From Glandiceps talaboti (taxonomy: Eukaryota; Hemichordata; Enteropneusta; Spengelidae), in contig NC_135570.1 in NCBI RefSeq assembly GCF_964340395.1, positions 15,132,822 to 15,196,821 on the forward strand: a stretch of 64,000 nucleotides of DNA. The letters run 5' to 3'. Under the pieces are notes generated by a model. That model was given only the letters and a program-made list of their open reading frames with translations. It searched no databases and was not told the DNA's origin. A program made the translations under genes and the position numbers. This document shows, piece by piece, positions 7,453-49,700 of this stretch (within the stretch, counting starts at the first letter, position 1; every line of letters begins with the position of its first letter).

Positions 7453-10400
7453 TTAACTCGTACTATGCTTCTCAAAATACTCAACCAATCGTACAGGTTT
7501 AGGTAATGGCCAGTTATATTCATTTGGAACATTGCCCTCCATCTTCGATTCCAGAAAACGAACCATTGGAAACCAAAAGTGCCATCTTTTGTAGCGCGCC
7601 CTCGTAGTTCGGCTGACAGCTAACGTATGATAGTATAAAAACATTCTACATGTTAGATAAAATGCTACGATGACGTCCACGGTGTAGTGTCCATGTGCTG
7701 CCAAAATTGCAAACATACCAGATACACTCATCATCCATATTATCACATGTAGCAACCAAAAACTGCGAGGTGTATCTATGGAAAAATAAAGAAAAGAGAA
7801 GTGTGAACGTTAGGCTGCATCAATTCAATACTTTGTTTGCTGTCCTTGAATTTCCCCAAAACTTACAAGGTAAACAGGGAATAAAACAAACACAGTAAAA
7901 AACCATAATACATGTCATGTCATGCAAAACCCATTTTTCTGTTAAGTTATTTTCTGTTTGTATCTAAATGTACTTGACTAGTGAAATATAAATTTAAAAT
8001 CCTAAGTTTGAATGTCTTAAAATAACTATTTCAGGATCTAATATGTACAGTTGTTCTGACAATATTTGAATGGTCTATCCATTTACAATATTACAGCATG
8101 TGGCCTTCTGCATTTTCAAACTAAATGTGTTTGGTTTTTTTGAAATCTATCAACAAACATACATGTACCCGCACAGGGACAGTAAACAAAGAAGTTAATT
8201 GATGGCGACTTATGTATATCACAGTGTAAAATCTATGCCATTCCTACATCACAAAAGTGATTTTTCGTTTTGCATTGTGTGGTTGAGAAAGGATTACGGT
8301 CTTTTATGGGTATTGTATATTTCGGTATTGTATATTTCGGTATTGTATTATTTTGGTATTGTATATTTCGGTATTGTATATTCTGGTATCGTATATTTCG
8401 GTATTGTATATTTTGGTATTGTATATTTCAGTATTGTATATTCTGGTATTGTATATTTCGGTATTGTACATTTCGGTATTGTACATTTCGGTATTGTATA
8501 TTTTGGTATTGTATATTTCGGTATTGTATATGTCAGTATTGTATATTTCGGTATTGTATATTTTGGTTCACCAGTGAGTCTCATGTCTGGCGTAATTGCA
8601 AAATCTTGTACGATTGAAAAACACGCTTTTTGAGAACAAATCAAGACTGGATATCTTTACCATCACTTGGATAATTAGATATTAATCCCCAACGTTTCTC
8701 TTTGTTCAGTCAAGGAAAATATGAGTGACTTAAAGGGCCTTGTCACTACGAGTCACTAAACAAGTTGTGACAAACCATTAAGTCATAAGTATTTTATGGT
8801 TGAGTGAAGTAAAAATATTGGGGAATAGTGTAATTATACCCCTTCAAGCAGGATGATTTATGAATAAAATAAATAAATAAAATAAAATAATATAAAATAT
8901 ATACTTACACTGTGTGATAAAAAAAGTGAAATTTGTAATAACCATAGCATGGCCACTAAACATATAAGCACCACAAGTTCTTCCACCAGTGGATGCCATT
9001 CCAAGTTTGATAAAAATGGCAGTAGATTTTAACAATCTTGACCATGCACTACCAGTAAACTGTTAATACAAAGTACAACTCTAAGGTAAGGAAATTTTTT
9101 TACAAAACTTTGTTTCCGATAACATCACTTCAGAAAATATGGTAGGGAGGTCGAGATTTTATTTATTTTAATTACTTCAACCCAAAGACAAGATACTCAT
9201 TAGTCACAATACTTCCATAACAGTTGATGAGGTATAAAAGAAGTAAATGAAGACAGTTATTTCACACACAAAATTGCTTCAGACAAATTTCGAGCCACAA
9301 TCTGTACATGTATAGTATATTTTATGAATTCAAAATTCAATGTACCAGTGACCTAAGGGGCCTTGTCATTATGAGTTGAAGATGAGTAATGACAAAATCC
9401 TTAAGTCACAAGAACTTTGCAGCTGAGTAAGGAAATTAATGGGGAACGGCTATAATACTTGCGAAGGCACAAAGTATGAAAAATTTGGAAAGAAATATGG
9501 TGATTTTGATTGCTTTGCCTAAATTTTGGGAATCACAGAACCCATGAAAAAGATATTTATAAATAATCTTTATTTATACTGGATAGTTCTTTAAGCATAT
9601 AATCACTTATCTCCCAAGATGTCAAGTGAGGGCCATCCCTCATGGGTTCAGTGTTAATGCAGGAGGAAACCAGAGTACCCGGGGAAAACCTGCGTTGTTC
9701 GGTAGAGTCAAACTGAATGACCCTCTTACTTACAGCGTGGTAACTTTAATCAAACCCTGAATGGGTTGGAACCCTGACTGCAGTGGTAAGAGGCAAGTGG
9801 TTTAACCAATGACACCCCACAATTTGTTGTTCTGCGGAACGGCCAGGATATAAATGCTATAATTTGTTTGTTTGTTTGTTTGTTCGTTTGTTTGTTTGTT
9901 TGTTTGCTAAACAACTGTAAACAATAAACTGTTAGTAGGTAAAATAAGAAAGACTTCATCATATACACTTACATTGGCAGAACAATCAACATGTTGTCCT
10001 GTTTCTGGAAGTGAAGTGACAGAAATGGTTGCCGACCTGAGAAGATATAGTGTACCAGTTATACAAAAGAAGCGCCTAAGAATGATAAATCTGTGGGAAA
10101 AAAGAAGAAAGAAAGTGTTTGGTTGTTCGTTGGTTTGTTGTCATTTACTCATGTATGTATCTACTCATTTGTCAGTTTATTTTGTTTGTTTGTTTGTTTG
10201 TTTAATTGTTTATTTGTTTTTGTTTGTTTGTTTGTTTACTTGTATGTTTATTTTGTTTTGTTTATATTTGTAAACAGAACTAAATGAGCCTAAGCACCCT
10301 GTGGTGTAAATGGTAACAATACTGTATAGGAACTAGACTGTGAGTGGATGTGTTACCCATTTTTAATGATACTGTACAGGAACTAGACTATATAAGAAAG

Positions 10401-34335: not shown

Positions 34336-35014
34336 GCGGTGAGATTCTTGTGTTTCTCACTAACATTGATTATAGACACAGATAATCATCTGCACTTACG
34401 AGGGGCATCTTCAACCATGGATATATTAGTGAGATAATACATCCATGCTTGAACATTCATTCTCATACACTCATGACAGATATATAACTAAATGTCTTTG
34501 GGACTGCTCTCCTCAGGATTACACACAATGACATCTTCAGGAACATTGTCAATATGGAGTCATTCTTTGCCACTGGGTGCTGGGAGTTAGGGAGGGACGC
34601 AACTGGTTGCAAAGGGTCAAGGATACCAGAGGAGGGGGAGGGGAGGGGATTAGGGCAGACAGATGAATGTCAGTCATTAACAAGTCAGTTGCATTCTGAC
34701 AAGTATTAGAGTGGAAAACACACTAACTGTATCACACACTGCTCTTTACTCTGCACACTTAAAGACACAACACACTTGAAATGCATTTATTGAAAGTTTA
34801 ATATATATAACACATCCATATGTATGTCAACATAGTGTATACCTGTGTTTGACATACTAATAAAGATGTAGAACCACTGCATTGTAGTATCAAAGTGTAA
34901 TGTTCACTCCTTGATGTCTTGAACGCCTTGTCAAGTTTACCAGTGTACTGCAATAATATATTTCAACTCATAGCTAAACGTAGCTAGCCCTCGGGCTTAC
35001 TAGAATAAGCATAT

Positions 35015-35022
35015 TGTATTGC
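35015..35022. repeat. 8-bp target-site duplication, left copy (TGTATTGC)
   Basis: TGTATTGC directly precedes the left inverted repeat and is repeated exactly at 47913-47920 beyond the right one. Eight-base duplications are the known insertion signature of Zisupton/KDZ transposons. Confidence 0.88.
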
Positions 35023-35146
35023 AGGTATATATGGGTGTATCAAAACAGCATCTGCTAGTAAAAAGTGCTACTAGCAGTTTCAACAAAACACTGTTTGCGA
35101 CATGTAGCACTTCGATTCTGCTATACCTGTAGCACTTGCATTCTGC
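35023..35146 (+). repeat. Left terminal inverted repeat of the KDZ element
   Basis: Begins AGGTATATATGGGTGTATC and ends TTGCATTCTGC. It aligns to the reverse complement of 47787-47912 with a few substitutions, a 1-bp length difference in an A tract and one extra terminal G on the right copy. It contains a palindrome: CTGCTAGTA (35052-35060) pairs with TACTAGCAG across 8 bases. Confidence 0.92.
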
Positions 35147-35228
35147 GACCACTATAGCACTCTGACTCTGCGACTCATAACACTTTGATTCTGCGATTGC
35201 TAGCAAATGAAGCACTTTCAGCGATTCT
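35104..35228 (+). repeat. Subterminal iterons (GTAGCACTT..ATTCTGC, about 25-bp spacing)
   Basis: The core AGCACTT or its variants starts at 35106, 35131, 35156, 35179 (AACACTTT) and 35211. Each of the first four is followed by ATTCTGC or a close variant. The first two copies lie inside the inverted repeat and are mirrored at the right end; the others extend inward on the left only. Regularly spaced subterminal repeats are the usual form of transposase or accessory-protein binding sites. The binding role is inferred. Confidence 0.8.
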
Positions 35229-37095
35229 TGCATCGATGGTCGAACAGCGATAATGTAGCTGCATGTATGCGCCGAACTATGACGACAGCACCCGTGACCC
35301 GGTAGCTACCGATCCACGGTAAATTATGATCGACACTCTCCTGACGCATGTGAAAGTAAGCCTAATCGATGTTTCAGTTTACTTTGTCATTGATGTCAAT
35401 AAAGTTTTTGCTCACATTGGTGTTTTATTGTATTGGCGGCAAAACAGACAACATTTCATGTCACCTTGTAGAATGTTTGCGTGGAGAGAGGCGACGGCTG
35501 TGACCTTGATCCCCTGCCGTCGACAACGTGCGAATCACAAAATACTAAGTAAACAATCGGCTGCGGTGGTTCATTCTCACCTCGTCCATGACAATGCAGT
35601 ACACGTACTCGGGTTTTTTCATCGAACAAATATGTTTATACAGATGTTGGAGGAGGAGTTCATGATTATTATTATCACTTTGTTTTGACTAACAGCCATG
35701 CTTTTACATGCGTTCTTATCTATGACAGTATCGTAGAATTCATAGTCCAAATTTGTAAAGTAATACGACGTAACAGCTCTAAGTTTTTAATTTAAAAATA
35801 CAAATTCACATCTATTTTATATTTATGTGTTAACTTCAATGACAAAGGAAAAATATTGTTACCGGTCTCAAATGTTTTTGGAGGACGTTGATGAATTTAG
35901 CTGACGCACCACGGACTAAAAATTAACATGTGCTGCATGCAGACGATTGCGTCCTTGAAATCACGGTCCGTGTTGAAATGCACGTCTTGTGAAGAAAACA
36001 TTGTATCAAACATTAAACGTTTGTTTAAAAAGTTGCAATCCTTTTCGTTGCCTTTGCCGATGTAAATAAGGCCAGCTTGCCGAAAGGGAACATGTTGTTA
36101 AGAACTATGAAACTTGTGAATTGGTGACGTCAGATGACTTGAATAAATTATGATGATATTAGCTGATGTGACAATGGCTATTCCTTTTTGAGAATGCGTG
36201 ACAACGATTGACTGATAGACTCTCTGTGGAAACATGCCGACATAACTTTTCCGCGTAAAATACACCGAAATAGGGTATTCTTTTATACATGCCATACGTC
36301 ACCTTAAAACGGTTATCTGAAGTTGTTATTTTTTCTGATAGAAATTCTTTCGATCGACATCTCTGGTATTTTCGGAGAATTTTTACTGATTGTCAGATTT
36401 GTAGGAGCAGTCGTACGGGCGGACGGACAATGAATTACATATTTGTGAGTGATTGTTAATAATAGGCACCATCCTACCAGTGTGAAACATACTATCTAGG
36501 AAAGGGGTGTGATGGCGCTCGGTGTGTCCTACCACTACATGTATTCCCTGCATGTATTACCATAGACCCTATGGTATTACGAAGTGTTGGCGGCCATAAC
36601 CACTAATCTCATTAGGGAGCGTGTGTGTAAACTTCAACATAGTCGAAAACAGTTAGAACTGTTTAGCTGGTTTTTTACAGCTGTGGACGTACTCGTTATT
36701 GCACCCACGAGATTGTTTTCGGCCAAGATACATGTAATGTTTGGTGAGATGAGATGTGTCTGCTGGGTGATGAGATCGCGAACCGTTCGGTTAGTTACAG
36801 CAACACAGTTGTGTGGTTAACGCTATGAGTTCAATAACGCCGTCAATTAGCACCAAGATAAATGATATTGTCTTTATACCCAACTTTACCGTCTTTTGAT
36901 GTTACATTGCGGATTGACTGTCAGCAGATCCTTGACAAATGACATATCATAAAGCAGTAAAAGTGTGAACTGGTACCGCTCTTTACGTCACCGACGACTT
37001 TACGCGGCGATCCGCCACTTGCTGCCCGGCGGATCGATCAGTTTAGCAAAGGCGACATTAACACTTTCTCACACTGTTCTTCGACTTTAAAAGCC
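35229..37095. other. Left interior of the KDZ element; 5' region of the NRF1-like gene
   Basis: No recognisable protein. A 120-codon plus-strand frame at 35326-35688 has no family features, and I do not call it. Towards 37095 the base composition becomes richer in GC, consistent with a promoter. Confidence 0.5.
36982..37040 (+). promoter_or_regulatory. Putative promoter elements upstream of the NRF1-like gene
   Basis: TTACGTCA (CRE-like, about 36983-36990) is followed by a perfect 9-bp inverted repeat, CGATCCGCC (37008-37016) and GGCGGATCG (37028-37036), about 60 bp before the start codon. The symmetry suggests a dimeric protein site. Autoregulation by the encoded DNA-binding protein is only a possibility. 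Confidence 0.4.
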
Positions 37096-40000
37096 ATGGA
37101 AACTTCTTTCGACCACATCATTATCAATATAAAATTCGTAGTCGACACATCGAGAAGACTGTATACCAGCAAAATGTCATTCCTCTTGAAGAAGCAGGCT
37201 GAAAGTTGGCTTCTTTTAAAGAAGCAGATCGATATGTTCGTAAAAAAGACTAACTTAGAAGTTGGAGTGGTCGTATCGTTTTACGACAAAGTGTTAGCGA
37301 AACGCAAGTTTATCGTCCACGGTACTGATTGCATGCAGCAGTCACTTCAAGAAAAACTTCCAGATATGGTTATACCACCCGTTACATCCACTCGGTATCA
37401 ACGTACAGCCACTGATGAGACAGATAGTTCAGATGTCGGCGGAGCCACAGACAACTCAACGTCCGTACCAATCCCAGACCTACCAGACATCCGTGACTCA
37501 CCACAAGGCTGCCTGAGCAAGCTTACGTTTGCCGAACTCAGACATCTGATTCCAACCATCGTGAAGACTAGCGTCGGTCGAAACCAGGCGTTATGGGGTA
37601 ATCAAGACAAAGCTCCCATGTGGTGGCCTGTAGATGTGCCCTACTGCAACCCATGCAAACGTCCGAAAGAGGTAGACGGCTGGACAGAACTCTTGAGGAG
37701 AGCTGCAAAGGCTTGTTACGTGTACTACCAACGAGAAGATTTGACAGGTAGGTGCAACGTCATAACCTGTTTTCAAAACTAGAGTTGATATAGTATTCAT
37801 ATAAGGCGACTTTCATCTCAGCGAGTTTATGCTGTGCCTTTATCATTGAGTAGTATACTCAGTACTTGTTTTGATTAGTTGAAATTTTATCGCCGCCTTC
37901 CCACGCGATCACTCCGAACAAAACAAACGTCACAACATGATGAATAGAGGTAAATAAGGACATCTAGCCGCTTTCACCACATCTGATTTTAATCAGATTG
38001 AGGGCGAGGGGTGATTCAATATCAATTACCTAAAATGTGGTAGTAGTGCACATTTTTTCTGTTCATTGTCCTACTTATGCTGAGCTGTATGTGTCAGTAA
38101 ATAAACAAGGCATGTTTGTTTTATTAATATTTTATTACTCCATATTTCGGCTTGGTTTGTGACATTTGAATGTATGTATTAGCAAGTATTATGAAGATAA
38201 TTTATTTTCCAATCAAATGATACCTCACTTGTCAAAAATGGGTAACTCTAAGTATTTTTATAACTATTTGATTACATAACACTCAGTCTCACTTTATTCA
38301 AATTATTGTCAGTGAGGGGCTCGGAGGAAGAACAATCTCATGAGGCCATGAGTGGTGAAAGAGTTAACAGTCTTCACCCCCAAGAGTAAGTGATACTAGA
38401 AAATATTTGAAACATTAATGAATCTTTCTTTTTTTTTTCACACAGGAGACAATACAGCAGAGCAACCTCAGTTATCTGAAGAGAACCCCACATTTACTAA
38501 TGGTAAGTCAACTTCTATTATCATATTTATTATCAGATTTGTGGGTAATCATGTATATGTGGTGTTGGGTCAAAAACTACCCACTTGTTTCATATACTAT
38601 TCCCCCCCCCCCTTTTTTTTTTTTAAATTTCTTTGATATTTCATGTACATCCAACTTGTTCTTGGATTTTTTTAAGTTACTTTTTTTTTGGAAATGGCAA
38701 GTTGTCTGTGTCTTATTATGGGTACACATGTCACAATTTTTTTTTTATTCCATCATGAACACTTTTACCTAGTCCCTCTGAGTTAAATTTCACAACCAGG
38801 ACAGTTAAAATAGGGTGTTCTGTAAATCATTTTAATTGAAAGTAGACTGTAATTGCAGTTATGTGTACATATTACTTTTACACCATAATGCGATTATGAC
38901 CATAATCACTCTGCACCTTTGTAGGATGACTGTATGCTACAACTTACAAACATCTGTTTGGATAGCAAGCTGATGTACACATTATTGTTACAATTTAAAA
39001 TGCCAAAACACAGATGAACATTTACATCTATAATATAAAATAACTTTGATGAATAACCATCTGAAATATATATATTAGTAAAAAAGTTAGGTAATTTTGA
39101 TATGTATTTGAAAAATGTACAAGACAACTCCCAGATTTTGAATATGAATAGGATAAAGTTTCTTCAGGGATATTTGGACAAAGGTTGAATATTTAATTTC
39201 GAAGGCACGTTTCCCTGAAGATAAACATACAATGTTAAAGCATGGATAATTTATTGTATATTAAAGCAATACAATATCTGCCTTGTTAACTGTTCAAATT
39301 CTTGTTTATTTCTCTAGCTGCTACACCAGAAGATATACAATTCCATCCTGAAATACCTGCCCTCCAGCAGATAGTTTACAATTATACCACACTGAATCAA
39401 AATGATCTTGGTAAGTAACAACATAAAATTCTGATATTAACCGTGAAAATATATATTGGTGACTTGTCAAAGGCTAACATACAGTAAGCGTGTAATTGTT
39501 ATTGAAAGACACTAAGAATAAATTCAGAAATACATGGGTACATAGAAAACCATATGTTCATACATACAGATGGTAGAAGTCAACTTCTATCTACTGAAAT
39601 TGTTAAATTTGCTGTGTACCTTCTAATCGATACTTTAGATATTCAGTCAAGACAGTGCAAAAAACACACCAATATACACATATTATAATGAGTTCAAGAC
39701 CAGTTGCATGGAATCTACAAGTAGGGTTTGTAAACAGAAAATGCTAAGCAGCAAAGTCCTATTTGCATCAGAATACATTGAGTTTGTCATAACGTAACAA
39801 ATGTCTAGTTAGCCTCAGAATTGTACAATATTAATCCACATTTATTCATTTTGTCTCTTTTCACCAGAACTTTTAAATATGCATTCTACACCGGAAACAC
39901 TACATGTCCTACCATCAGCCATGGAAATATCAACAATACCGAGTTTTGAAGACAGTACTCTCCACACCAATGACTCACTGTCTTTTCATGACACATTCCA

Positions 40001-40223
40001 AGTAACTGAGGAAGCCTCCTTGCAAGACCAAACCCAGTCTGATGACCAGTTTGGCATGCACAGCCACGACCTATCTGAGCACACAGTATCATATGCCATT
40101 CAGTCCCCAAGCCAACCTATGCAGTCATCATCATCCATGCTTGTCAGGAGGAGTCAAAGAAAAAGCAAGAAAACAACAAGAGCTCTAGAGTATGTGATGC
40201 AGATAGCACGCCGAAGAAGATGA
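37096..40223 (+). CDS. NRF1/EWG/P3A2-family DNA-binding protein carried by the transposon, 4 exons, 385 aa
   Basis: Join 37096-37747, 38446-38502, 39318-39410, 39868-40223. All introns are phase 1 with GT..AG ends, and the total of 1158 nt is 385 codons plus stop. NRF1-family proteins are dimeric nuclear factors that bind GC-rich palindromes. Residues 28-95 (SFLLKKQAESWLLLKKQ.., then KRKFIVHG) resemble the first half of the NRF1 DNA-binding/dimerisation region. Residues 143-216 carry its signature: LTFAELRHLIPTIVK, SVGRNQALWG, PMWWPVDVPY, then ACYVYYQREDL. A Ser/Asp/Thr-rich linker (about 100-135) separates the two. The C-terminal half is acidic and Ser/Gln-rich, and the last 26 residues are basic (RRSQRKSKK, ARRRR), a likely nuclear signal. 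It is well diverged from vertebrate NRF1, so it is probably not the host orthologue. It lies fully within the transposon and converges on the transposase. Confidence 0.87.
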
Positions 40224-40363
40224 AAGGAACTGTAAAACATTGAACATCTAACTGATCCACTAATTCTTTGTCCAATTGTAACACTCATTAAGTTTCTATC
40301 AATTTCTTTGACAAACCAGTATTTATCTTATTTTGATAGACATTACTAAAATTGCCATTCTGC

Positions 40364-40369
40364 ATTAAA
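40364..40369 (+). terminator. Candidate polyadenylation signal (ATTAAA) of the NRF1-like gene
   Basis: ATTAAA lies about 140 bp after the stop codon and is followed by a T/G-rich stretch (GTGTAGTAGTCTTGTC). Using it would end the transcript before the convergent transposase exon 8. A canonical AATAAA at 40850-40855 would instead make the two 3' ends overlap. Confidence 0.45.
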
Positions 40370-40446
40370 TTTTATAATAGTGTAGTAGTCTTGTCAAATA
40401 TTCCATACTGAGGTGGCAACTCCTTCCTTTTGATTGTTTTCACTGT

Positions 40447-43400
40447 TTATGACAGCAGAGCACCTTTCACTTTTTTATTAGCAAGACCAAGGAAGAGGGC
40501 TGCATGAAAGATAAAATTGTCAGGTAGCATGTACGATAGTTGTGCCTTGATTCTTGATATGGAAGTGTTCGTCTGTTCGCAGATTTGACTGTTCAGATTT
40601 GTTATCTCTCTGTTTCCTTTGTACCTGTCCATGTTATAACCAGTTGAACATCTGTTGGAAAGACATAAAACAGCCATTTAGATCAATGAATGTATTTTTC
40701 ACTATGTTACTACAAGATGATGACTACAGTGTTCACAAAATCGTATAAAATTGACACAATTGACTTTATACTGTACTCTATATAAATTATGTCAAGAAGT
40801 TTTTCCATTCTTTTCACAGTTAAAGTCTGTAACATGGTTTGTAAATTTGAATAAACTTGCTATTTTTGGTCATTAATGAAATATACTGCGTCACTATTGG
40901 TGTGATTCCATCTTGTTCCTAGAATGTGTTGTAAAAAGGTATTTGCTGACCTGACTTTTAAAACTATTCATCCTCAACATTTTGGCATGTTCAAGAACTG
41001 CTAAAATTTGCAAATCACTTTACAAAAAAAATCCCAACTTAACACTCCTGTTTCCTTAATATTTTGAGCATATCTTCACTCACAAAAATATGGTCAGATC
41101 CAAACCCACCTACATGTATTTTGTATTGAAAGGCATTTCACAGTAAGTACATCCTTTTATTATAGGCCTAAAAATACTTGGCACTTACCCTGTGTGATTA
41201 CACCAATGAAGCCTGTCCACCAGGAACATTGTATGCTTGAAGAACTCAGGCTCTCTGCAAGAAGAAAACAAAAAAGATACAAAAGATGATTATCACAAAT
41301 GACTTGTTAACATGTACATCTGAGGACTTGCTGGTATCTCAGAGAGATTAAGCTGAAAGCAATCCATGGGACATAGTAAACAAACTATCAACATAGGTAT
41401 CAAACACATGCGTATGATGGAGGTAGACATTAAATAATATTGTACAAACTTAGACTACTAGTGGCACTAGCCATATAGATGTACTCACCTATTCAGGCAG
41501 TATTGATTAAGCTTACAAGCATTGTCGTAGATTATGATGTTTGGTGCCTTTCGGAAACGCTGCTTTATGATTTGGAATGGTAATGCAGGAGACTCGTGGT
41601 ATTTCATGACTTGAAACCCAAGACAGACTTTGTGTTTGCAGTACATTGTAAAGAGACCAGGAGAGAGAGTTGGGTGCCCCTTGGAGAACTTATTGCAGGT
41701 ATCTGGGCCCCTACAGGCAACACTCTCTCTTCTGCAGTCACATTGATAATTTCCAGCTCTGATAGTAAAAATGAAGAATTATTATAATAAGTGTTAAGTA
41801 TTATGAATTGACAGTATGTTGAATATATTAGGAGTGTTAAACTTAATCACTTTATTCAGCATGTGTTTCTTTGCAAATGCAATTTGATTACTGGTATTTT
41901 CCATCATCAGTGTTCAATAAAGCTATGTACATGTAATATATTCAGTGAGAATGTGACAAAACTACATCTCAACAACAGCAAAAATATTGATTTTTTTGAA
42001 AGTGAAAACATACACAAAAATGAAGAAGAACTGATAAGACTAAGTATAGAAATAACTGACTAAGGACAATAGACTTGCACCAGTCCCTTGGGTGATTTTT
42101 TTTCACGAGTCAATGAGAAATAAGTTATGAGTGAAAAAGAGTGAGATTCTTAAAACTGCTTAACAATGAGCTTTAGACTTACCCATGTATTTTTGGCATA
42201 TTAGGAAAAAAATCCAATGACTTGAACAGGTCTGCCTGGTTTGGGTTGAGGTAATGGTGACTGTCTGCTGTCATAGGTGCTTGTAACTTAGAGCGCTTTA
42301 GAATTTCTTGGAGCAGATACCGAACATCATGTGGTAATCTTCCATTGCTGGAGATTGCCTCGATAAAGTTGCAAATGATGGGTGCATCCTTCTTCAGTAA
42401 TTGCAGTTTATCACGGTGCTGGCTGTGGAATACATTAAGTCCTTTGATAAATATTTCTTTCAGGATATGCCGGGTTCTTACTGCATCACTACTTTGGAGT
42501 AGGGAAGAGGTCGGTGAGTTTCGGGAAAGATCTTGTAGGAAACTGTGATAACTTTCTGGAGCAAGGAGTTGTGTTCCATCAATGCTGATTCGCTGTAAAA
42601 TGTTGACTAGAGATGACAGGTGGTTGTGTTTCCTTAAAAGACTGATGAGACGTTCATATTGTTCTGGTGATAGTGATACAGGGGGCAGATTGTGCTGATT
42701 CTTGTGGTCTGGGTTCATTCCTGCAAATTGTAACAGAAGTTTCCTTGCTTGAGGATTTGGAATGAACACCCTGTCTGCATGTTTTGTACCAATGATGGGT
42801 GGCAGGTGACTAACTTCTTCATCTTCACTGAAGCATTGTAGTAGTTCTTTCTGCAGACCGATGCCAGTCCCATCACAAACAATAGTGTCTGGAATTGTCC
42901 CACATAGATTGCAGTTGAATACTTCATTGAAGTCCAAGTCCAACAGTCTAGCATATCCATTCCATGCTGTTCGCAATTTATGTAATGGTAAATGTGAAGT
43001 GGATGATAGTGTTGAATGTTTCTGTGCATATGCCCTGTAACAGCAAACACAAGAAAATGTTTTGTCAGGGTTCTCAAGTCATCTTACAAATTGAAGTTAC
43101 CATTTGGGAATGTAAATAAAATTGCTTGTGGGACAGGATTCTTGTTACAGTTCTAACTGTTTGTACAAGTATCTAAAACTTTTGCAAGTTTACCATATGG
43201 GAAACAGTCAAGTTAAAACCGACTCAAAATAAAGCTATGCATTTTTTTGTGGCGATGATAAATTGGGCATTTTCAGTAACTGTATTTATGAATATGTAGG
43301 AGCTTCAGTGAGGTGGTCACTATACTAATATATAGACAGGTTGGCTGTTATATGAAGGTGGTCTTTAACACAGGTTTGTAGTCAACTCAAAGAAAGCAAA

Positions 43401-46400
43401 CACTTGCATACCTGTGAAACGCTGCAAGGGGATTCCTTCCTTCTAACATAAGATGCAAATAGCTGTGTAGTAACCCGTAGTGTATCATATCATGGTTGTT
43501 TAAATTGAATAGCAAGTCATCCTTTCCATCATAAGAAAGACGGCAACCACATTGCCCATTACTTGGTCTGTAGTAAACTGAAAGAAAAATTAGTAAAAGT
43601 CACAAAGTGCAAAACCAAAGAAATTTTCTTTAGTTTGAATAATTTTCATTCCAACAAATGCTAAAGAAACTCCCCCTCAAAAGTTAGCAGAGAATACCAG
43701 GACAACATGTTTACACAACTAAAAACACACTATCTCCATTGTTAAAAAATGGTAACTTACCTTTGAATTTTTCATGGACATCATCTACGCTGACTGTACT
43801 GATAGTGCTGTTTTCTTTGTAGATGACAGCATCACCAATATACCAGTCATTCTGAACTGGGTCGTCATCATTCCAAGTATTACCATGTCTGCATACACTT
43901 AGTGGTTCATCTGATTCTGGTATGGAAGGGACCAGGTGCCTTGGCAAGGGGAGTTGCCCTGACTCTTGTTTGTCATACACATCCTTCAGTTCAGATGTTA
44001 GTGGATAGGGTATCTTTTTATATGACACATATGAGAAGTGACTTGTCCTTGGATGATCCCTCTCACTTTCTGGTGTAGGTTTGTCAGTCTCTTCCAACCA
44101 TTCTTTATACATTTTGACATATTCACAGGTCCTAGTACCATAATTACAAGTCATACATGCTAGTTTCTTGCCACCCACTGTCTTCTTAAGGTGCACTAAA
44201 TGAACTTCTTCCATTGTAACAGCTGCTAAGAGAGGGGTGTCTTGTAGCAGTTCAACCACAACATGTGAGGTATCTGTAAACAATAATCATTAGAAGTCAA
44301 TCACAGGTCTTGTCCAGTACAGGTAATACAGGACAAACTCAAGTTTCACCTATACATGGACTAGAAAAAAACCCCAGCAAAGAACAGGCTTAATAGAGGA
44401 AAACTGTCATGTTATACTTGGTTTTATATTTCACTATATTTATGTATTTATACAGTAAAGTTCACCATAATTCACTAAATTCATTACCATGCCTGGAATT
44501 ATTTAGTAAAAATGTAACAGTAGGATCTATTTTCTCAAAGGAGCATCACAGTATATGAAATCAAAAATTTGTGTCGGAAACATCAAGATAATAGAAATAA
44601 ATTCCAGTGAATGTATGGATTTACACTGTATCAAAATCATATTAACAAGTACTCTATGACACAGTTTTAAAAATAGGCCAAAGGGGAGCACTGTGACTTT
44701 CTAATTTTACAAAACTTGAAATGGAAAACTCAGAGATAAACTTTGAATTATTTGGCAGGTGACACTGTAATATTCACTGATATGAAGAGAGTAACAATTA
44801 TAAAACTTGATGCAATTATGGCTACCTCTTGCAGTTGTGGTTGTAGTATATAAGTAACAAAATTGAATTGAATTTAGCAACAGTAGAATTGAACTCTTAC
44901 CATTATTACTCTGAGAGTCCAATTCAGTATTTGTTTCTGGAAACAATCTGTCAACAGTAGCAGCATGCAGACAGTATTTGGTCTTCTCAGTTGCTACAAA
45001 CTGGTGAAACTCTTCTGTGATGGAAGAGTTCGTGTTTGATAGTCGTTGGCGCTGGATTAAACCATCCTCACAATCGCAAGTGACCAGAGAAACATTGTGG
45101 TTTCTATCAGAACTATAGAAGACCCTGTTTCTTTCCACTAAGCGATATTTTTCCTTCAGCAAGACACCAGTATCTCTATCACAATTAGCTACAATGTAAC
45201 TGCCATTTGACAACTTCCAGAACTTTTTAGCTTTTTGTAATTGTCTGAGATACTCATCTCTAGGATCAACAGCATATGCCTCTTCAGAACTGATCATCCT
45301 GAAATCAAGTACATCAAATAACTGAATCAGTATATTTACATACATGCATAGCAATTAGAGTTAATCTAAAATAAAAAGTAAGATGTTTAGAATGTGAAAC
45401 ATGTAAATTATAGTGATTCTGAGACTCTTCTACCTTATCTAACATTTTGACTGAAGCCAATACAATATTGTCAATTATTTGTGATTTCTATTTCTGCTGT
45501 ATATAAAATACACAATGAAAACAAAGTACAAACTACAGCTGGTATAAAGTCACGAGTTGGGACTTCATTGATATTATTCACTCTGCTTTTAAACATCTCA
45601 AAAAGAAATCACAAACTAAAAGAAGAAAAATTAGTAAACCATGGTATAACAGTTCCTGCTACCTTTGAAGAAAGGGGTTATTTGAATTTGAAAATTACTT
45701 CAGGAAATTATCAAATCAGGGTTTTAGAAGTGTACATAATTAAAATGTATCTATGATATTCATTCAGTCTTAATAACCAAGTCTTGTATCAAATTGACAA
45801 CTGAACTGGCTTCACTAAATTCTTTTCATATGTATTGGCACAAGACAAGGTTGTAATCTCAACCCCACTCAATCCACTTTATTCATGAACGAACAAATGA
45901 AGGAATGCAACCATTACTACACAGAAAATGTATTAATCTGCTGATGACACTGTGTTGCTATTCACTAGTGATGGTTTATAGATTCACAGTCCCAATTAAA
46001 ACTATTTGAATCTTTTTGTAATAAACGACAACCATCAGTGAGTCATAAAGAAACAACTAATAGTACTCCATGCAAATATCAAAATAAATATAGTGTAGGT
46101 TTTTTTTTCATTTATAATGAAAACTTGATTCTGGTATGTTTGCATTATACACTTATCTAGGAGTTATTGATGTTTTCTGGAAATATTTTCTGAAAATTTT
46201 AAGAATTATTATACCAGAGTGGCTTTGAGAATAAGGTCATGTGAAAAATAGTGTCCTTATAGAATGTCACTTGTTGGGTACACAGCTTGTACATAAATAA
46301 ATAAATAAATCTCCTGTTCCACTGGTTTTTTTTATGAAGTAAAATCGAACACAATAAATCCACTGATAAATTGCATAATAAATAATATATTCACTATTTT

Positions 46401-47672
46401 TTGCAGTTTGCCCCTGTTCTATTCTACTTTATAAATTTGTGGCATTGAAAGTTGGCAGACACTGTTTCAACCAATTGATCGTTATGAACATATTTTGGTT
46501 CATTTGTTGCGAGTTTCTTATCTTATTTCGAACGGTCACTATGGCTACGCTATCGCTGTTTGGGTCGAGAGCGAACTGCAGACTGGATCATGGAGTTCAT
46601 TACGAGGTCACACATGTCACATGTGTTATGATGGAGGACTTTTGCACGTACAAGTAGGGAGAAGTATTTCTACACAATTCAAAGTGCGGTTGGAATACAC
46701 GTTTAATTTCAATTACTTTATCTAGTGGTAGTGGTATTTCTTCCTGCACTATGATTTACTATCGAAGTCGTCATTCAGTTTGAAAAAATGTTCTGTGATG
46801 GTGGCTGAACAAGTGAAATCGTCTGATCAGCAAGGTCTCTGACCTACCCTTCGCAGCGAATAGAACGATCGGGATCAAAAATGGCGACGCGGTGTTCAGG
46901 AGTACCGCTCCTGTGGTTTTTTACCGGAACACTGGGATGGCACCGTTCGTCCACGAAAACCATGGAGTGTATTACAAATAAATCACGAGAACAAGCAGAC
47001 ATCCCAGTTTGCGTTAAACGATAAAGTTTGGTGAGGTACTCGTACGTACACGTCCCTTCGATTCAACCGTCATCGCATATGCATGCAAGGTCCGGCTTGA
47101 GTCCGTGTATTACGGGTAATTAACTGCGTCCGGGGTAGTCCTGCTTGCATACGGAGGAATTCGGGACTCGATTCTGACAATTGTCCCTCCCCTTGCATAC
47201 GGAGGAATTCGGGACTCGATTCTGACAATTGGTGTTTAGAGTCAAGTCAGTAATACAGACTCGTGCACCGTCATGTAAGCAGGACTACGTCCGGGGGCGG
47301 GAGGTTAGTGGGTCCATGGCCACGGAAACGTAAAGAACGAGGACCACTCGATGCTATAGATTGCAGGAAAGTGAACACAAATAATTGTAATAAAAAAATT
47401 CGAAACAACCTTTCTTAATTCTGCACTGAAACGGAGTAGTGTTATATTTGCTTAACGTTGCGTCTGTTGATAACGATCATAAACATTGACACTGCATTAC
47501 ATTACAAGACTTCGATGAAAATGTAGAAAAGAAAGTGAAACACTCACCTCATGGGTCTTTTTCTGGTCACGGGAACGGCCGACGTATTCTTCCTCTTCCG
47601 ACAAGTTGATAGTAATGCTCTAGTGGTTTGAGCGACTCTACAACGTTCAATGAATGATTTGCTCGATGACAT
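40447..47672 (-). CDS. KDZ-superfamily transposase with SWIM/CxC cysteine clusters, 8 exons, 864 aa
   Basis: Join 47672-47548, 45298-44901, 44273-43761, 43577-43412, 43034-42183, 41758-41489, 41254-41189, 40651-40447. The total of 2595 nt is 864 codons plus stop, with every junction GT/AG and in phase. Features in order: a basic N-terminus (RKRK); a SWIM-like motif C116-x-C118..C151-x-H153; cysteine-containing MTCNYGTRTC in exon 3; a CGC cluster with LLFNLNNHDMIHYGLLH in exon 4; NLCGTIPDTIVCDGTGIGL with D455; a Cys-rich CDCRRESVAC..DTC block; then the hallmark IIYDNACKLNQYCLNREPEFF (D763) and NSQICEQTNTSISRIK (E822). D455/D763/E822 are the likely RNase-H-fold catalytic residues (inferred). 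Related proteins include animal HMGXB3-like sequences, but no HMG box is seen here. Transcription starts near the right inverted repeat, so the gene belongs to the element. No internal stop or frameshift was found. Confidence 0.92.
47127..47296. repeat. Nested direct and inverted repeats in transposase intron 1
   Basis: A 39-bp unit starting CTTGCATACGGAGGAATTCG occurs at 47144-47182 and 47192-47230. GTAGTCCTGCTT (47135-47146) has its perfect inverse AAGCAGGACTAC at 47277-47288. CGTCCGGGG flanks both sides in the same orientation. The stretch is GC-richer than its surroundings and lies about 250-550 bp downstream of the transposase start. It could be an internal regulatory region or a small nested insertion. 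Confidence 0.7.
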
Positions 47673-47786
47673 TGTGACGCTGACAAGGACTGGTGATGTT
47701 AACTCTGATACGAATTTTTGAATTATGACCGGTCGTTCAACAAGCGTCAGTAGTACAATACAAATGCTAGTTTAGCATGTTTAGTA

Positions 47787-47912
47787 GCAGAATGCAAGTG
47801 CTACAGGTATAGCAGAACAGAAGTGCTACATGTCGCAAACAGTGTTTTGTTGAAACTGCTAGTAGCACTTTTTTACTAGCAGATGCTGTTTTGATACACT
47901 CATACATACCTC
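47787..47912 (-). repeat. Right terminal inverted repeat of the KDZ element
   Basis: Read on the minus strand from 47912 it begins GAGGTATGTATGAGTGTATC and matches the left repeat to its TTGCATTCTGC end. It includes the CTGCTAGTA/TACTAGCAG palindrome and two GTAGCACTT iterons. The transposase start codon is only about 115 bp inside it, so the promoter probably overlaps this repeat. Confidence 0.92.
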
Positions 47913-47920
47913 TGTATTGC
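47913..47920. repeat. 8-bp target-site duplication, right copy (TGTATTGC)
   Basis: Exact copy of 35015-35022, immediately outside the right inverted repeat. Confidence 0.88.
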
Positions 47921-48135
47921 TTACCCAGTATTCCAGGCTTGGGACTGGCTAAGTTATTCAATGCCAATGAATAACCTAGGCGCCTTTACTAGCTACACCT
48001 ACAGTATCCCATAACTTGGCAAATCAAACGCCAATCACCCACCCACCAACATTTGCTGCGCGCTTGCAAATGTTGGGTCAGTTCAAAGCCATAAGCCTGG
48101 GGACTGTATTTTATGACTATAGCCCTGAACTGGTT

Positions 48136-48336: not shown

Positions 48337-48776
48337 ACTTAAAAGAGACATTTTATTAGTATAATGAAAATAAATTACAAGTCATGAGTACTTTATTGAA
48401 AACATTACATTCAAATAAATACAAAATTACATTTGGATAAATACAAAATACAAAATACAATTTAACAATGGTGAAATTAAAATTACATATCAAATCATGA
48501 ATCAAATGTTAAATTCACAATTACAATAACTTCCTCTTGATGTGATAGTCTATTCCATAAAGTCTTCTTTCCTGCATCCAGTATCTTCCTGTACTTGTAG
48601 CTTTCTTAAACTCAACTCAACTCAAAGAATGTTAGAACAACAATATGATATTACACAATATTTTAGATACATGCATTTTATCTACATCATTTAGTATTGA
48701 AAATTATATTGGCCAAATATATTTTGTAAATTTATCTCCTTTTCTCAGTAGCTCTTATCCTTGTGGATGATTTTTT

Positions 48777-49700
48777 ATGGGGCAATCTGTGGGTGTCTCT
48801 GTGTCAACATTATTTATGGGGCAATCTGTGGGTGTCTCTGTGTCAATATTATTTATGGGGCAATCTGTGGGTGTCTCTTTGTCAAAACTATGGGGCAATC
48901 TGTGGGTGTCTCTTTGTCATCATCTATGGGGTATCTGTGGGTGTCTCTTTGTCAAAACTATCTATGGGGCAATCTGTGGGTGTCTCTGTGTCAACATTAT
49001 TTATGGGGCAATCTGTGGGTGTCTCTTTGTCAAAACTATCTATGGGGCAATCTGTGGGTGTCTCTGTGTCAACATTATTTATGGGGCAATCTGTGGGTGT
49101 CTCTTTGTCAAAACTATCTATGGGGCAATCTGTGGGTGTCTCTTTGTCAACATTATTTATGGGGCAATCTGTGGGTGTCTCTGTGTCAACATTATTTATG
49201 GGGCAATCTGTGGGTGTCTCTGTGTCAACATTATTTATGGGGCAATCTGTGGGTGTCTCTGTGTCAACATTATTTATAGGGCAATCTGTGGGTGTCTCTG
49301 TGTCAACATTATTTATGGGGCAATCTGTGGGTGTCTCTGTGTCAACATTATTTATGGGGCAATCTGTGGGTGTCTCTGTGTCAACATTATTTATGGGGCA
49401 ATCTGTGGGTGTCTCTGTGTCAACATTATTTATGGGGCAATCTGTGGGTGTCTCTTTGTCAACATTATTTATGGGGCAATCTGTGGGTGTCTCTGTGTCA
49501 ACATTATTTATGGGGCAATCTGTGGGTGTCTCTGTGTCAACATTATTTATGGGGCAATCTGTGGGTGTCTCTGTGTCAACATTATTTATAGGGCAATCTG
49601 TGGGTGTCTCTTTGTCATTATCTATGGGGTATCTGTGGGTGTCTCTGTGTCAAAACTATCTATGGGGCAATCTGTGGGTGTCTCTTCGTCAACATTATCT
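48777..49700. repeat. 39-bp minisatellite, about 23 copies, open in three frames
   Basis: The unit is GGCAATCTGTGGGTGTCTCT plus GTGTCAACATTATTTATGG, with occasional TTTGTC/AAACTATC variants and a few truncated units. Because 39 is divisible by 3 and the unit has no plus-strand stop, all three plus frames stay open; the longest reads 341 codons (MGQSVGVSVSTLF repeats). There is no splice or promoter support for translation. Confidence 0.95.

Follow-up and report, generated by a model that had tools for sequence, protein, structure and literature searches.

A 64,000-nucleotide stretch of the Glandiceps talaboti genome (C24:15132822-15196821, hereafter the window) contains a transposon in which the gene for a KDZ protein, the putative transposase, faces a gene related to the transcription factor NRF1. 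This raises the question of whether the NRF1-like gene belongs to the transposon and, if it does, what it does there. We searched the genome (590 Mb, 47 contigs) for copies of the element and for relatives of both genes. The results show that an NRF1-type gene entered a transposon lineage and has been retained there as a regular accessory gene. Taken jointly, they are best explained, with moderate confidence, by a KDZ transposon whose NRF1-type accessory protein is predicted to bind the element's own ends and to regulate or assist transposition.

Boundaries, genes and mobility of the element

The transposon occupies window positions 35022-47912 and its inverted ends extend over about 128 bp in two gap-free blocks, one of 42 nt (35023-35064 with 47870-47911, 95% complementary) and one of 90 nt (35060-35149 with 47784-47873, 97% complementary). 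An initial annotation of this DNA had described inverted repeats of about 125 bp bracketing 12,890 bp and two complete convergent genes, and our analysis bears this out. The NRF1-like gene (37096-40223, plus strand) has four coding exons for 385 amino acids (aa), and the KDZ gene (47672-40447, minus strand) has eight for 864 aa. Both models are intact, with GT-AG borders at every intron and no internal stop, and the two stop codons lie about 220 bp apart. The translated NRF1-like model is 100% identical to the annotated G. talaboti (Spengelidae) LOC144452195 isoform X1. KDZ exon 1 was identified by inspection of the right end.

35022..47912, transposon assigned to the KDZ group, 12,891 bp, CAGGTATATATGGG...CATACATACCTC (ends common to other copies)
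35015..35021, plus strand, left 7-bp target duplication TGTATTG (from window-family copies and the 7-bp duplication of a sister family)
47913..47919, plus strand, right 7-bp target duplication TGTATTG (same basis)
35022..35149, plus strand, left terminal inverted repeat, NRF1-like side (repeat alignment; first base from other copies)
47784..47912, minus strand, right terminal inverted repeat, KDZ side (repeat alignment; last base from other copies)
37096..37747, plus strand, NRF1-like exon 1, NRF1-type DNA-binding and putative dimerisation region (domain and structure matches)
38446..38502, plus strand, NRF1-like exon 2, 57 nt and so divisible by three, missing from the C10 copy (gene model, copy comparison)
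39318..39410, plus strand, NRF1-like exon 3 (gene model)
39868..40223, plus strand, NRF1-like exon 4 with stop (gene model)
47548..47672, minus strand, KDZ exon 1, with the start codon 240 bp in from the right end (98% identity to its C22-family counterpart)
44901..45298, minus strand, KDZ exon 2 (gene model)
43761..44273, minus strand, KDZ exon 3 (gene model)
43412..43577, minus strand, KDZ exon 4 (gene model)
42183..43034, minus strand, KDZ exon 5, first invariant Asp, CDGT (gene model, alignment)
41489..41758, minus strand, KDZ exon 6, second invariant Asp, YDN (alignment; weak Pfam KDZ match)
41189..41254, minus strand, KDZ exon 7 (gene model)
40447..40651, minus strand, KDZ exon 8 with stop, invariant Glu, CEQTN (gene model, alignment)

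The initial annotation had also read an 8-bp target duplication from TGTATTGC, which is found at 35015-35022 and 47913-47920. This 8-mer is not rare (3 occurrences in the window against 3.5 expected), so the proof of a duplication rests on other copies. In all five window-family copies with both ends readable, exactly 7 bp are duplicated around CAGG...CCTC, and the duplicated words all differ (TGTATTG, AATAAAG, GGTTAAG, ATTACCC and CAATAAA). The C at 35022 is therefore the first base of the element and the eighth matching base is coincidental, being the element's own first C on the left and a flanking C on the right. We rejected the 8-bp duplication for the window element on these grounds. The ends that were read start with (C/G)AGGTAT or CATGTAT.

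The left 186 bp of the element has 24 matches in the genome, and six of these left ends belong to the window element and its near-identical copies, which sit on six contigs:

C24, window copy, 12,891 bp
C8:21.85M, near-identical copy, 12,888 bp
C7:20.83M, near-identical copy, 10,617 bp
C10:1.19M, near-identical copy, 8,772 bp
C18:17.85M, near-identical copy, 8,259 bp
C20:14.39M, near-identical copy, right end inside an assembly gap

The five other copies differ from the window copy by 0.14-0.29% mismatch at aligned bases. When the two flanks were joined through one TGTATTG and used as a query, we obtained 13 matches, four of them spanning the junction query end to end (98, 95, 94 and 89%). The empty site at C24:15100557-15100856 is identical at 295 of 300 bases and has no gap, while the 95% site reads TGCATTG and has a 2-bp gap elsewhere; in both empty sites that were inspected, the junction is crossed without a gap. 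An empty site, for which the initial annotation had proposed to look, exists and is 98% identical across the junction; the empty sites are paralogues of a repeated sequence and not an allele. The sequence around the insertion (34872-35021 and 47920-48069) is itself repeated, with further copies on C24, C23, C12 and C14.

A sister-family copy at C8:24.2M lies in a satellite array, in which the predicted 31-bp empty site occurs exactly five times within about 1.0 kb on the left and seven times within 1.5 kb on the right. It follows that the sister-family duplication is 7 bp and that the base flanking AGG...CCT is part of the element. The near-identical elements at C8:24.228-24.241M and C1:6.235-6.248M differ in their terminal base (one has G..G, the other C..C), which resembles the outcome of a flip of the interior between the 199-bp inverted ends.

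These copies and empty sites establish the mobility of the window element, which is a recently active transposon. NRF1-like exons 1, 3 and 4 are kept in all six copies and exon 2 in five, and the proteins of the copies with exon 2 show 0-1 residue differences from the window protein. The whole transposase gene is present only in two of the six (C24 and C8); in the other four, deletions take several transposase exons, wholly or partly. We placed the nine deletions at random in a simulation (small sample, C20 assembly gap left out) and obtained p=0.015 that no deleted copy (n=4) loses a constitutive NRF1-like exon, and p=0.11 for at most one hit when exon 2 was counted too. The sparing of the constitutive exons is only suggestive. 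The initial annotation had expected dispersed copies with different 8-bp duplications, each keeping both genes: the dispersal and the differing duplications stand, the size of 8 bp and the retention of both genes do not.

Pairing of KDZ and NRF1-like genes across families

To follow the two genes beyond the window family, we used the Glandiceps NRF1-like protein P0003 and the Ptychodera KDZ protein P0005 as genome queries. They gave at least 58 and at least 68 matching stretches, respectively, and the latter were grouped by eye into 18 loci; both locus lists are lower bounds. An NRF1-like match lies within 10 kb at 14 of the 18 KDZ loci found, and 13 of these pairs are convergent. The other one, at C1:24.76M, is broken and has its NRF1-like match on the same strand. 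The recent window family accounts for six of the 14 paired loci and two further families for two each, so the convergent families number six. A query from outside the hemichordates, the amphioxus KDZ protein P0009, matched the catalytic core at 10 loci, 9 of them with an NRF1-like neighbour.

The families share their layout over considerable divergence. The C22 element (9,797 bp) has similar ends, the same convergent arrangement and an 8-bp duplication; its KDZ gene is 59-78% identical to that of the window (98% in the first exon) and its NRF1-like gene 52-62% in the matched stretches. The C1:6.2M element (12.9 kb) has perfect 199-bp inverted ends and the same layout, and two copies of its family show a 7-bp duplication. 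For the C4/C14/C23 family no inverted ends were found in the first stretch examined, and longer sequence showed AT-rich satellite borders with a duplication that is not clean.

The divergence of the two genes is correlated (identity matrices, r=0.69, Mantel p=0.005) over eight pairs, six from Glandiceps and two putative ones from Ptychodera, which were matched only through contigs of equal size; in Ptychodera flava, NRF1-like and KDZ proteins lie on equal-sized contigs twice. One comparison is discordant, C4 with C1:31.2M, at 61% identity for the NRF1-like protein and 55% for KDZ. The pairing of the two genes is a lineage trait of long association. Dispersed copies, empty sites, the presence of NRF1-like exons in each of the six copies, a host NRF1 gene at another locus and the six families bear out the earlier proposal that the NRF1-like gene belongs to the transposon. 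KDZ relatives were found in lancelets, a brittle star, a sponge and an annelid. A profile search with the NRF1-like alignment, which has limited reach, returned only the same four hemichordate proteins.

Several partial relatives were also seen. A 63-aa N-terminal piece of the NRF1-like protein with one stop is near-identical at 20 places (C7, C19, C22, C23, C29, C30 and C32), several of them near contig ends or on small contigs, and is either an amplified remnant or another mobile family; these short pieces have no KDZ match within 10 kb. The source locus of P0003 (C7:17879940-17881698) encodes an NRF1-like protein with a long Gln/Pro/His repeat, has no KDZ match within 10 kb and is a solo or possibly domesticated copy. 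Several diverged NRF1-like pieces lie within 50 kb at C17:14262025-14312499 with no KDZ match. Left-type ends at C10:14127913-14143000 and C1:3989500-4002711 are followed by 13-15 kb with no NRF1-like or KDZ protein match and mark either truncated or gene-less relatives. A deletion-derived element of about 2.9 kb at C23:19.2946-19.2976M has retained exon 1 of the NRF1-like gene but none of the transposase exons.

The NRF1-like protein and the ends of the element

The window NRF1-like protein matches the Pfam NRF1 DNA-binding domain with 62.4 bits (cut-off 23.5) and the structures PDB 8k3d and 8k4l. Its AlphaFold model, with a mean pLDDT of 48.7, was of too low quality and was left unused. The match to Nrf1_DNA-bind begins at model position 67 in the window protein and at 25-26 in other element families, and in some of them it spans positions 25-208 of 213. 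The host has its own NRF1 gene at another locus (C1:26114033-26117544, best stretch 163.7 bits), with a DNA-binding sequence close to that of human NRF1. The transposon versions share with NRF1/EWG/P3A2 the DNA-binding and, presumably, the dimerisation region over Nrf1_DNA-bind, but they are mobile and multicopy and the matching region lies within one exon, whereas the host domain is spread over four matching stretches. A one-exon domain would fit capture through mRNA or intron loss. The data suggest that the element captured a host regulator long ago and kept it.

Human NRF1 contacts the bases of TGCGC through R206, N242 and R244, according to PMC10810270. By counting from T201 on the NRF1 alignment, we found R206 and N242 kept in the window protein; R244 is absent and the loop after its position is five residues shorter. 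Within the window family, the NRF1-like coding sequence has fewer differences than noncoding sequence (4/5733 against 86/37176, p=0.008). The NRF1-like frame of the C1:6.2M family shows 0/624 and 1/624 differences against 25/2799 and 20/2863 outside (p=0.015 and 0.15). Between families, the ratio of nonsynonymous to synonymous change (dN/dS) rests on saturated dS.

The ends carry candidate sites and are rich in CpG:

35052..35280, left subterminal TGC[G/T]A sites and repeats of about 25 bp, with a TRF array at 35096-35196
47650..47881, right subterminal TGC[G/T]A sites
35001..38000, left end rich in CpG, with an observed/expected ratio of 0.88-1.32 per 500 bp
46501..47912, right end rich in CpG, with an observed/expected ratio of 0.75-1.27 per 500 bp

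TGC[G/T]A, which resembles the TGCGC half-site of NRF1, occurs in either direction 38-50 times per kb in the terminal 260 bp or so of the window element, compared with 2.3 per kb outside. Six of seven ends have inverted pairs with a spacing of 9 nt. Over the first 200 bp, all seven ends sampled from five families have TGCGA pointing inward, and a single site (C23) points outward. In five of these ends TGCGA is more frequent than a first-order Markov model predicts (p 0.005 or less). Four of them have TGCGA at position 32, where both C24 ends have TGCTA. The classical GCGCATGCGC site was rejected as a candidate, as the first 320 bp of the seven ends tested for it hold no match with up to two mismatches, and no single long motif emerged among the 6-10-base words over-represented in the long ends.

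The observed/expected CpG ratio, per 500 bp, changes from 0.19 just outside to 1.00 just inside the left border, and from 0.75 just inside to 0.31 outside the right border. It is 0.19-0.39 just outside both borders and 0-0.37 in mid-element. Elsewhere in the window, a tandem array of 24 copies of a 39-bp unit lies at 48770-49698, about 860 bp beyond the right end of the element, and a PAP2_C-domain exon, presumably sphingomyelin synthase-like, at 7453-7809 (minus strand, E=3.6e-14).

Possible roles and known relatives

The initial annotation had suggested that the NRF1-like protein may help transposition, regulate the element or alter host expression. In our preferred explanation, the protein with its changed recognition loop most likely binds the terminal and subterminal TGC[G/T]A sites. 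The right end contains the transposase promoter region and the transposase start codon lies 240 bp inside it, so binding at the ends would also set transposase transcription. It could in addition help to bring the two ends together.

Several observations pull the other way. The TGC[G/T]A motif was picked after the repeats had been seen, and TGCGA is not above expectation in two ends, C24_R and C4_L (p about 0.1). Among 12 aligned NRF1-like domains, the residue at the R206 position is Arg in eight, Lys in three and Cys in one; recognition therefore differs among these domains. The cysteine clusters of the KDZ protein itself may be the end binder. KDZ coding differences in the window family (10/7224) do not differ significantly from noncoding ones (p=0.13), and the C4 family has a dN/dS of 1.1-2.5, calculated from few changes in stop-to-stop frames that include untranslated sequence. 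Four KDZ loci (C13:0.527M, C27:0.07M, C12:21.2M and C24:17.5M) have no NRF1-like match within 10 kb, and the one locus over the cut-off of the Pfam KDZ model (C6:28626839-28627297), which was not recovered by the protein queries and is probably another KDZ lineage, has its nearest NRF1-like match about 2 Mb away. Conversely, about 13 NRF1-like loci have no KDZ match within 10 kb; two of them, C23:19.3M and C16:20.9M, are close relatives of elements that have one elsewhere.

NRF1 binding is methylation-sensitive. As an alternative, the protein might counter silencing: it would occupy CpG-containing end sites, keep the ends open and unmethylated in the germ line, and so be an animal equivalent of the TET/JBP genes that fungal KDZ elements carry (PMC12730594). 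The high CpG in the left 3 kb and right 1.4 kb, low in mid-element and just outside the borders, and the CpG within TGCGA fit this idea. However, a ratio of 0.88 is also reached at 33.0-33.5 kb, outside the element, and CpG-rich promoters without such a role would look alike. We regard this role as rather unlikely. Equally doubtful is a scenario in which the captured NRF1 was re-tuned from TGCGC towards TGC[G/T]A, marks the ends, drives the transposase promoter and keeps the ends CpG-rich and unmethylated, in parallel to the fungal TET/JBP capture.

It is improbable that the NRF1-like gene was captured and is carried as a passenger without a role. Four deleted copies do keep it without a whole transposase, and some NRF1-like relatives are broken by stops. 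Yet it is kept in six families, its divergence is correlated with that of KDZ, its coding changes are fewer than the noncoding ones, and the deletions spare its constitutive exons at the significance levels given above. We see little likelihood, too, that the protein acts mainly on host promoters, NRF1 targets included, to the benefit of the element. An NRF1-type DNA-binding domain is kept, but R244 is missing and the loop is shorter, so the protein may not recognise host NRF1 sites. The chance trapping of a host NRF1 gene between unrelated repeats, with all other KDZ copies lacking it, was an outcome that would have overturned the initial annotation; it found no support and we dismissed it, given six copies on six contigs, an empty site and a host NRF1 gene elsewhere.

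The window KDZ protein falls below the Pfam cut-offs (CxC4, 22.6 with 26.9 bits needed; KDZ, exon 6 alone, 15.7 with 26.6 needed), and its assignment to the KDZ group comes from its relatives. In an alignment of 11 transposase relatives, 34-76% identical to the window protein, nine match CxC4 and seven KDZ. D455, D763 and E822 are invariant and form a putative catalytic triad; homology and these acidic residues suggest that the protein is the transposase. The Spm/CACTA elements combine a transposase with a second DNA-binding protein, TnpA, and arrays of short subterminal repeats. Their proteins, ends and duplication are unrelated to those described here and a likeness of working is only proposed. 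With KDZ transposons the window element shares the KDZ/CxC4-related transposase, the large size and the short target duplication, and differs by its NRF1-type accessory gene. PMC12730594 gives Zisupton and Dileera an 8-bp target duplication, and Kyakuja a 7-bp one with CA..TG termini and no inverted repeats. The window family duplicates 7 bp (5/5), with 8 bp in the C22 family only; it thus shares the duplication of Kyakuja, but has CAGG..CCTC termini and inverted repeats of about 128 bp. On the features tested, and as these subgroups are described there, the window element fits none of the named ones. The same source reports TET/JBP dioxygenase genes in fungal KDZ elements. These and other transposons with TET/JBP likewise carry a second host-type gene that may counter silencing, whereas the accessory gene in the window is of a DNA-binding transcription-factor type, not an enzyme, and the host is an animal. 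Our searches of open-licence full texts turned up no description of NRF1-type genes in KDZ or Zisupton elements (Repbase was not searched).

After the fungal TET/JBP genes, the NRF1-type gene gives KDZ elements a second kind of accessory gene. For annotation it calls for caution, as transposon genes with NRF1 domain matches could pass for host regulators. The families amount to a natural collection of NRF1-type domains in which the recognition loop is altered, beside their likely, predicted target sites, and the existence of intact near-identical copies makes the capture of an NRF1-type gene by a transposon directly testable. Host genes derived from transposons are well known. Here the direction is reversed, with a transposon lineage that took a conserved transcription factor of animals and has retained it through long divergence.

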